Shown here: piece by piece, positions 17,634 to 20,259 of the stretch
Position numbering within the stretch: position 1 is the stretch's first letter
Layout: each line of letters starts with the position of its first letter
Assembly (NCBI RefSeq): GCF_002005105.1
Contig: NZ_MSCV01000016.1
Location: 62,001-126,000 of the forward strand
Origin: Methylocaldum sp. 14B
Lineage (GTDB): Bacteria; Pseudomonadota; Gammaproteobacteria; Methylococcales; Methylococcaceae
Reading direction: 5' to 3'
DNA length: 64,000 bases
The notes under the pieces: generated by a model
The model's database searches: none
Seen by the model: only the letters and a program-made list of their open reading frames with translations
What the model was told of the DNA's origin: nothing
Translations under genes and position numbers: made by a program

Positions 17634-18377
17634 ATGGAAGAACAAATTCCCCCTGCGAGGCGTCGGCGCGGCATCTATCTCTTGCCGAACTTGTTCACGA
17701 CAGCAGCGCTTTTCGCCGGTTTCTACGCCATCACCGCCGCCTTTAACGGGCGCTTCGAAGTGGCTGCCGTCGCCATCTTCATTGCCATGGTTCTGGACGG
17801 TCTCGACGGACGGGTGGCGCGTCTCACCAATACGCAGAGCGCCTTCGGGGCCGAATACGACAGCATGGCCGACATGATTTCCTTCGGTGCCGCTCCCGCC
17901 TTGGTTGCCTACATCTGGTCGCTGACGACGCTGGGCAAGATCGGATGGGTTGCCGCTTTCGTGCACGCCGCCGGTGCAGCGCTTCGCTTGGCCCGCTTCA
18001 ATACCCAGATCGCAACCGCGGACAAACGGTATTTTCAAGGTTTGCCGAGTCCTTCCGCCGCCGCGATTTTGGCCGGGTTTATCTGGTTTAGCGAAACCTA
18101 CGGTCTGACCGGCGAGTCCATGCGCTATGTCTCGCTCGGACTAGCCTTGATGACCGGGCTCCTGATGGTCAGCAACTTCCGTTACTACAGCTTCAAGGAT
18201 GTGGATCTCCGCGGACGGGTGCCGTTCATGTGGGCTATCCTCGTGATGCTGGTATTCGCCTTCATTTTTACCAATCCGCCCCTGATGCTGTTTGTCATGT
18301 TTACGGCTTACGCTGTTTCGGGGCCGGTACTGACTTTGCTCGGGCGACGTAAAATGCGGAGCGAGCGCCGAACCTGA
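17634..18377 (+). CDS. pssA: CDP-diacylglycerol-serine O-phosphatidyltransferase
   Basis: A 247-residue membrane enzyme making phosphatidylserine. The CDP-alcohol phosphotransferase motif reads DGLDGRVARLTNTQSAFGAE-YDSMADMISFG near residues 47-78, with all acidic residues present. About eight hydrophobic segments follow, e.g. FRYYSFKD and FMWAILVMLVFAFIFTN. A GCGGGA ribosome site precedes ATG 17634. pssA between ilvC and leuA is a recurrent arrangement in proteobacteria. Confidence 0.94.
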   Translation: MEEQIPPARRRRGIYLLPNLFTTAALFAGFYAITAAFNGRFEVAAVAIFIAMVLDGLDGRVARLTNTQSAFGAEYDSMADMISFGAAPALVAYIWSLTTLGKIGWVAAFVHAAGAALRLARFNTQIATADKRYFQGLPSPSAAAILAGFIWFSETYGLTGESMRYVSLGLALMTGLLMVSNFRYYSFKDVDLRGRVPFMWAILVMLVFAFIFTNPPLMLFVMFTAYAVSGPVLTLLGRRKMRSERRT

Positions 18378-18448
18378 GAAGGGACGGGGAATCTGCTGAC
18401 ATTAAAGTCCTTCGCCGGATAAGGCGAAACTATTCCCCACTATGGCGC

Positions 18449-18477
18449 TTGTACGGTATTCGGATGAGTAATATAGT
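18449..18477 (+). promoter_or_regulatory. Promoter for the leuA leader and leuA
   Basis: TTGTAC (18449-18454) and TATAGT (18472-18477) are separated by exactly 17 bp. A start site near 18484 would place the leader peptide ATG (18502) about 18 nt into the transcript. This suggests leuA is not driven only by read-through from pssA. Confidence 0.6.
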
Positions 18478-18501
18478 TGCTCGAAAGGCAGTCACAAATC
18501 C

Positions 18502-18615
18502 ATGCATTCAATCGCCAACCTACAACGCCGGAAATCCGACCGACTCATCGGCCGGGTCGGCGCTGTCTGTCGCTCTGAATTCCTCGACCTTCTGCGTCTT
18601 CGTCTCCTGCCCTGA
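18502..18615 (+). CDS. Leucine-rich leader peptide upstream of leuA
   Basis: A 37-codon reading frame, ATG 18502 to TGA 18613-18615, ending [11 protein letters not shown]: six of the last ten residues are leucine, encoded by CTC, CTT and CTG. It follows a sigma70-like promoter and ends 96 bp before leuA. A 6-bp hairpin (CTGCCC/GGGCAG, 18607-18622) has the stop codon in its loop. The cluster of leucine codons directly before the stop is the hallmark of a ribosome-stalling leu leader. No T-tract terminator follows, so the mode of attenuation is unclear. The ribosome site is weak (AAGG, 13 bases away). Confidence 0.65.
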
Positions 18616-18687
18616 GGGGCAGTAGACTTGACGCATTCCAAAATCCTAAGCGCGAACATAAATGCAGGGTCCTCTTGAAGAGAGGCC
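18607..18687 (+). promoter_or_regulatory. Candidate leu leader RNA structures
   Basis: Two hairpins follow the leucine codons: CTGCCC-TGAG-GGGCAG (18607-18622), and one with GG-CCTCT / AGAGG-CC arms and a bulged T (18668-18687). Both precede the leuA ribosome site GACGAGG near 18697. Neither has a T tract, so control might act on translation or through Rho. Confidence 0.4.
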
Positions 18688-18711
18688 ACGAGAGATAGAC
18701 GAGGTTTTATC

Positions 18712-20259
18712 ATGAGCGACAAACTCATCATTTTCGACACGACGCTGCGAGACGGCGAGCAAAGTCCCGGCGCTTCCATGACGCGGGACGAAAAGGTGCG
18801 CATCGCCAAGGCGCTCGAGCGTCTGCGGGTGGATGTGATCGAGGCCGGTTTTCCGGCGGCGAGTCCCGGCGATTTCGAATCGGTGCAAGCTGTGGCTCGG
18901 GCGGTCAAGGAAAGCACGGTATGCGGTTTGGCGCGGGCTTTGGATAGGGACATCGACCGTGCGGGCGAGGCGCTCAAGGAGGCCAATCGGGCGCGTATTC
19001 ACACGTTTATCGCGACTTCGCCGATTCATATGCAGAGAAAGCTGCGCATGGAGCCCGATCAGGTGATCGAGTATGCCGTAAAGGCTGTAAAAAGGGCGAG
19101 GCAGTATACGGATGATGTCGAGTTTTCGCCGGAAGACGCCGGACGTTCGGAAGAAGATTTTCTGTGTCGAATACTCGAGGCGGTTATCGATGCGGGCGCG
19201 AAAACCTTGAATATTCCCGATACCGTCGGTTACAGCGTGCCGGAGCAATTCGGCGCCACCATCCGGCGTTTGAGAGAACGTATTCCCAACTCCGATAAAG
19301 CTATTTTTTCGGTGCATTGCCACAACGATCTGGGTCTGGCGGTGGCAAATTCGCTGTCCGCCGTCATGAACGGGGCGCGGCAGGTCGAATGCACGATCAA
19401 CGGCTTGGGCGAACGGGCCGGCAATGCCGCGCTGGAGGAGATCGTCATGGCGGTCAAGACCCGTAAAGACGTGTTTCCCTGCCGAGTCGAGATCGACACC
19501 CGAGAAATCGTTGCGTGTTCCAAACTTGTCTCGAATATCACCGGTTTTCCGGTGCAGCCCAACAAGGCGATCGTCGGAGCCAATGCTTTTGCGCACGAGT
19601 CCGGCATTCATCAGGACGGCGTTTTGAAGAGCCGCGAGACCTATGAAATCATGAGCGCGGAGGAAGTCGGCTGGACTGCAAACCGGATGGTGCTGGGCAA
19701 GCATTCCGGGCGCAACGCGTTTCGCACGCGCATGCAGGAACTGGGGATAGAGTTCGGATCCGAGGCGGAATTGAACGACGCATTCCAGCGTTTCAAGGAC
19801 TTGGCTGACAAAAAGCACGAAATCTTCGATGAAGACCTGCAGGCTTTGATCACGGAAGCGGGCGTCGAGGCGGAGGACGAGCGGGTTAAGCTTGTCGCGC
19901 TCAAGGTATGCTCGGAAACGGGCGAGGTTCCTTGCGCGCGAGTGTCGCTCAAGGTCGAAAACGAAGAAGTGAGCGGCACCGCCCAGGGCAGCGGCGCTGT
20001 CGACGCGAGCTTCAAGGCCATCGAATCCGTAGTTCATACCGACTCCACCTTGTTGCTGTATTCGGTCAATAACATCACCACCGGCACCGACGCTCAGGGC
20101 GAAGTGACGGTTCGCCTGGAAAAGGGCGGGCGGATCGTCAACGGCCAGGGCGCAGATACCGATATCGTGATCGCTTCGGCCAAGGCCTACATCAATGCGG
20201 TCAACAAACTCCTGGCGCCGCGGCAACGCATGCATCCTCAAGTGGCGGGAGACGTTTGA
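18712..20259 (+). CDS. leuA: 2-isopropylmalate synthase
   Basis: A 515-residue enzyme, first committed step of leucine synthesis. The TIM barrel starts [19 protein letters not shown] and includes [17 protein letters not shown], the metal-binding [14 protein letters not shown] and [18 protein letters not shown], and [12 protein letters not shown]. The C-terminal LeuA allosteric domain (about 390-505) binds leucine for feedback inhibition. Length is that of the long bacterial form. Preceded by its own promoter and a Leu-rich leader. Confidence 0.97.

Follow-up and report, generated by a model that had tools for sequence, protein, structure and literature searches.

What does a leucine-rich leader peptide control when no terminator follows it? 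For Gram-negative bacteria, textbooks describe leucine control as it is known from enterics, by transcription attenuation with a terminator. The question arises at leuA, whose product catalyses the first committed step in leucine synthesis, in Methylocaldum sp. 14B, and more precisely in the stretch 18449-18711, which lies between a pssA-type gene and leuA, 3′ of ilvB, ilvN and ilvC. Coordinates refer to the window, meaning the whole 64,000-nucleotide stretch of DNA that was analysed. The features discussed here are the following.

17634..18377, plus strand: pssA-type CDP-diacylglycerol-serine phosphatidyltransferase gene, the direct 5′ neighbour, itself preceded by ilvB, ilvN and ilvC
18449..18477, plus strand: probable sigma-70 promoter (TTGTAC 18449-18454, 17-bp spacer, TATAGT 18472-18477)
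18502..18615, plus strand: predicted leader peptide ORF (ATG start, 37 codons, stop TGA 18613-18615, leucine-rich C-terminus)
18568..18575, plus strand: 5′ arm A of the predicted long-range helix, UGUCGCUC, leader codons 23-25, pairing with leuA GAGCGACA at 18714-18721
18582..18586, plus strand: 5′ arm B of the same helix, CCUCG, pairing with the leuA Shine-Dalgarno (SD) CGAGG at 18700-18704
18583..18612, plus strand: putative sensor codons, leader codons 28-37 (Leu at 28, 30, 31, 33, 35 and 36)
18607..18622, plus strand: stop-codon hairpin CUGCCC-UGAG-GGGCAG (arms 18607-18612 and 18617-18622), from the fold and class-wide variants
18700..18721, plus strand: leuA translation initiation region, inside the predicted long-range helix (SD 18700-18704, AUG 18712-18714)
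18712..20259, plus strand: leuA, 2-isopropylmalate synthase (TIGR00973 / NF002087)

A preliminary description of this DNA had pointed out a promoter with an exact 17-bp spacer, a 37-codon frame with six leucines among its last ten residues, a stop codon inside a hairpin loop and the lack of a T-run terminator, and all four hold. Both promoter hexamers and their spacer are present, and across the genus (four genomes) this block hardly changes, in contrast to the diverging sequence on its 5′ side. The promoter matches the consensus at just 8 of 12 positions, which makes it weak by that measure, and it was absent from the mechanical scan list because 9 of 12 were needed there. The frame is as described: a short predicted ORF 5′ of a biosynthetic gene, enriched in codons for the product amino acid. 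The UGA stop forms the first three bases of the UGAG loop, with a hairpin probability of 1.0 in the window fold, and no terminator-like site was found in 18300-18800.

The preliminary description had also made its reading depend on conservation of the leader in close relatives, and the leader is kept both in the genus and in the class. All four genus genomes have 37 codons, a Leu-rich end and an identical CUGCCC-UGAG-GGGCAG hairpin; in the three other genomes the ORF lies at the same place, with diverged N-terminal halves and CRSE(F/L)L...LLP ends. For the class, we combined named genomes (Methylococcales, Chromatiales and other Gammaproteobacteria) with an even sample, and the resulting 221 leuA loci gave 204 non-redundant upstream regions. 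The unit searched for was TGCC-N2..9-GGC(A/G) with at least three Leu in the eight in-frame codons directly 5′ of it. This combination of Leu codons and hairpin is found in 140 of the 204 gammaproteobacterial leuA upstream regions (69%) compared to 67 of 4080 dinucleotide shuffles (1.6%) and 3 of 204 reverse strands, related sequences being not fully independent in this and the other class-wide tests. By the pattern, the unit is missing from around 30% of the sampled leuA regions. The pattern was written from the first, named-genome set, and in the class-wide set, which was held out, 72 of 102 regions carry the unit. Across genera, the leader peptide is not conserved 5′ of its last residues. 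Judged from sequence, the architecture of Leu leader and hairpin is far from chance, and a leucine leader peptide controlling leuA is very probably real.

Next, we considered what such a leader could act on. In the minimum-energy fold of all four genus members (L001, L003, L004 and L005), leader codons 22-29 pair with CGAGG(SD)..AUGAGCGACAAAC of leuA, and the genus consensus fold (alifold) gives the same long-range helix of the leader with the leuA start. The leuA strand of the arm A helix (18714-18721) runs from the G of the AUG through codon 4. Within the genus, 95% of the cells of this helix are paired, and covariation is not detectable among these four sequences. At the scale of the class (n = 131), the 45 nt 5′ of the hairpin were compared with their own and with other leuA start regions after removal of row and column means. 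The Leu region shows an excess complementarity to its own leuA start of -2.1 +/- 0.31 kcal/mol (p = 2e-8), compared to -0.4 (not significant) for a control region further upstream and +0.7, that is pairing avoided, for the region 3′ of the hairpin; a background of -0.7 to -1.1 remains for the Leu region against other segments. The probability that the SD is paired with the Leu region is 0.38 for the real sequences, compared to 0.30 when the codon order is shuffled and 0.25 with the SD of other genomes.

We then modelled the ribosome as a 30-nt footprint moved codon by codon and computed the cost of opening the leuA start. Class-wide (n = 95), an A-site 5-9 codons before the stop cuts this cost the most, by around 2 kcal/mol, and an A-site at the stop the least (0.57); the drop in the swapped control is about 1.2 and 0.32, respectively. 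In the window, opening the leuA start costs 14.0 kcal/mol when the leader is ribosome-free; an A-site at Leu 28, 30 or 33 brings this to about 6.6 and one at Leu 31 to 9.2; at Leu 35/36 the cost falls only to 13.3, and at the stop it is 15.5 kcal/mol. Two of the relatives (L003 and L004) show window-like opening and the third (L005) no opening effect. When only the SD is considered in the window, stalling makes no change (0.47 to 0.46 unpaired), a test that is narrow because the helix also contains the AUG and codons 2-4. By folding, the RNA thus takes alternative states set by ribosome position, and the class-wide effects on opening and pairing are moderate in size. A stalled ribosome that opens leuA and a finished one that lets it close fit the needs of a translational leucine switch.

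On this modelling, the controlled step is probably the initiation of leuA translation, with the leader peptide acting as a leucine-sensing switch. A short transcript leader would encode a peptide with six Leu in its last ten codons. When leucine is plentiful, the ribosome would reach the stop codon in the hairpin and depart, after which the codons before and within the Leu run would form base pairs with the start codon of leuA and its Shine-Dalgarno, leaving the gene untranslated. When charged Leu-tRNA is scarce, the ribosome would stall at the Leu codons and mask the 5′ arm of the helix, so that the leuA start would be exposed. We infer from this scheme the response to leucine itself, the sign of the regulation (induction by shortage) and any secondary drop in transcript through polarity.

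The architecture had been likened beforehand to leu operon attenuation, with the reservation that the control step might differ from the enteric model. The leucine leader part of that likeness stands and its enteric sense falls, as both the terminator and the Rfam model fail: at E <= 1, the enteric leu leader RF00512 has no match in the window or in six relatives, and no other Rfam family gives a credible one. The reservation was well placed, since there is no consistent intrinsic terminator and the RNA structure favours leuA translation initiation. Transcription attenuation, whether enteric-like, with ribosome position deciding between terminator and antiterminator, or through the stop hairpin as a weak terminator, is accordingly unlikely here, even though the leader peptide is of the fitting kind. 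A T-rich stretch (..TCTTTTT) does come a few bases behind the stop hairpin in some AT-rich relatives (L043, L051 and L114), and in part of the lineage the hairpin might therefore serve as a weak terminator. Nevertheless, the window has no intrinsic terminator and the relatives no consistent one: their terminator-like sites number 21 of 137, where the reverse strand gives 11 and mononucleotide shuffles give 3.8, and the majority consist of the stop hairpin or the SD stem itself, without a proper U-run. The long-range pairing also targets the leuA start and not a terminator.

Slightly less likely again is attenuation by Rho, which would load between the leader stop and leuA once the leader is completed and leuA left untranslated, stalling preventing termination. 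The lack of an intrinsic terminator suits this mechanism, and a hidden leuA start would be expected to bring Rho polarity with it. However, the spacer is not notably C-rich or G-poor (C/G 1.30 compared to 1.34 upstream; 17 C and 15 G in the window), so that no Rho site is apparent by composition, and a ribosome stalled upstream would leave the spacer uncovered.

In the window, the stop-codon hairpin is lengthened by GUCU (18602-18605) pairing with AGAC (18624-18627). In the closed state, the hairpin coexists with the long-range helix, with a mean probability of 0.71 over the sequences folded. It is probably not the pairing that hides and releases leuA, the key pairing being the long-range one with the leuA start region; the hairpin may set the exit point of the finished ribosome, block reinitiation or aid the closing of the long-range helix. 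Among the 140 units, 99 have the stop codon 5 nt into the hairpin, 13 at +8, 9 at +14 and 15 at +17; the codon is TGA in 53, TAG in 48 and TAA in 39. The loop of the relatives varies as well (UGAG, GUAA, UUCG, CUAG; inner length 3-8). On alignment A3, the covariation score exceeds all 500 shuffles. Selection fixes the four core pairs in that alignment, and therefore the compensated versions found outside the pattern are the better evidence: TGCGCC-GCTA-GGCGCA (L081, L111), TGCGCG-TGCTG-CGCGCA (L094), TGCTGC-CCTGA-GCAGCG (L122) and TTGCCC-TTTA-GGGCAA (L109). Alignments A1 and A2, in which loop gaps are misplaced, were left out of the counting and of the model. Given these compensatory changes amid varying stop type, stop position and Pro codon, the sequences indicate that the conserved thing is the RNA.

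These variants also bear on whether the hairpin accompanies an arrest peptide. TnaC stalls a terminating ribosome at a Pro-stop, and a nascent ..RLLP at the stop might do the same here, perhaps with leucine as the ligand. An LLP-stop is the commonest ending, and the usual stop position 5 nt into the hairpin would agree with such a site. Yet the CC in the hairpin arm accounts for the Pro, each of the three stop codons occurs, and the residues upstream of the last ones differ between genera. The hairpin is kept in leaders ending LLAL* (L104/L109; asterisk, stop), LLLRR* (L081/L111), LLPLGR* (L059) and LLPRAGN* (L010). As variants without Pro and with shifted stops keep the hairpin, the constraint is on the RNA and not on a Pro-stop peptide, and TnaC-type arrest is improbable.

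A DNA operator, in which the palindrome would bind a leuA regulator and the ORF would be incidental, is the least probable alternative: TGCCC..GGGCA is palindromic and its covariation would appear alike in DNA, but the palindrome lies 3′ of and in frame with the Leu-codon run in 140 of 204 regions, contains the stop codon or comes just before it (+5, +8, +14 or +17), varies in loop sequence and length unlike a fixed operator, and stands downstream of the promoter.

The specificity of the proposed translational element for leuA was examined with a covariance model built from the Leu-run/hairpin unit, with which we searched the host genome and 140 genomes of the class. Across the latter, the 30 best matches all adjoin leuA, as do four of the next tier; the second-tier matches away from leuA (L259, L260, L263-L271, L273, L275-L278) look like chance and mostly fall in coding or low-complexity sequence. 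In the host genome, the best match is the leader in the window (E = 4.9e-6). The second-best (E = 6.7e-4) is a leader, MNRRQPSIPPLLALTPSLGLLLPRAGK*, that lies around 245 nt 5′ of a second 2-isopropylmalate synthase gene belonging to another subfamily (NF002991).

Host genome C4, about 205770-205811, minus strand: second unit (L223), ending ..LGLLLPRAGK*, with the hairpin TGCCCCGCGCGGGCA

Between this second leader and the NF002991-type gene, there is a 48-codon ORF beginning MNHLTPALPLLRLQ. Among the LeuA2-type genes of the class, the hairpin unit is found in 2 of 30 only, namely the copy of the host genome and a weak one. Leu-rich short ORFs without the TGCC hairpin are present 5′ of other LeuA2-type genes (L281, L284, L288, L293, L295, L302), so those genes may have other leucine leaders. 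Matches of the covariance model outside the class are mostly due to chance. One exception, L311, comes from another class of the same phylum and has the leader LLLQLALLP* and the hairpin TGCC-GUAA-GGCA 5′ of a LeuA2-type gene; the unit may extend beyond Gammaproteobacteria.

Several known systems resemble the element in part. Like the enteric leu leader (leuL; RF00512), it places a Leu-rich peptide before leuA and would use ribosome position as the leucine sensor, but it has no terminator/antiterminator pair and no RF00512 match. Translational attenuation of erm-type resistance genes (e.g. ErmB) works through a leader-stalled ribosome that frees a hidden Shine-Dalgarno. The same release is proposed here, with uncharged tRNA as the signal instead of the antibiotic.

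We found no description of the element in Rfam or in the open-access literature searched. We give even chances to the broadest reading: an undescribed, class-wide RNA element of Gammaproteobacteria in which a Leu leader and stop hairpin control leuA translation, adopted also by another, distantly related 2-isopropylmalate synthase gene, serving as a main leucine switch of leuA outside enterics and either related to the actinobacterial LEU element or its convergent counterpart. If true, a leader would control the initiation of leuA translation in a large part of the Gammaproteobacteria sampled (methanotrophs, purple sulfur bacteria, symbionts and others), with a recognisable RNA signature that is currently missed by annotation and Rfam. 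This reading offers a testable model, a search model for annotation and, for methanotrophs, a way to steer leucine-derived products.

The LEU element of actinobacterial leuA operons has a leader ORF with a run of Leu codons, for which pairing to the leuA Shine-Dalgarno is predicted, and a conserved pseudoknot enclosed by the base stem; no terminator was described (Seliverstov et al. 2005, PMC1262725). In that work, control through translation of the leader was considered doubtful, since mutating the Leu codons in Streptomyces did not give the behaviour of attenuation (PMC1262725). Predicted pairing of the Leu run with the SD and the lack of a described terminator are common to both elements. 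The actinobacterial element is described as a pseudoknot, and the present one has a conserved hairpin holding or preceding the stop codon.

In 42 of 137 leaders (L072, L099, L144, L168 and 38 others), a second conserved hairpin, CC(U/C)GGCG(A/G)GG, stands around 13 nt 3′ of the stop hairpin. ACGCA usually comes in the next few nt, and a three-base pseudoknot GCG:CGC is possible. Such a small pseudoknot (CCUGGCGAGG..ACGCA) could form in up to 42 of the 137 relatives and not in the genus of the window, which is without the second hairpin and in which three of the four genomes keep only GACGCATT.

In Epsilonproteobacteria, LeuL is a leader of 20-35 aa with several C-terminal Leu before leuABCD, and short terminated transcripts were read as transcription attenuation (PMC3847290). 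It shares with the leader described here the C-terminal Leu residues and the position 5′ of leuA; the available part of that report describes no stop hairpin or SD pairing (PMC3847290). Finally, in Pseudomonas putida without TruA, LeuA is up 4.2-fold in the proteome, a change that was not linked to a leader (PMC7822408) and that would be compatible with leader control of Pseudomonas leuA.
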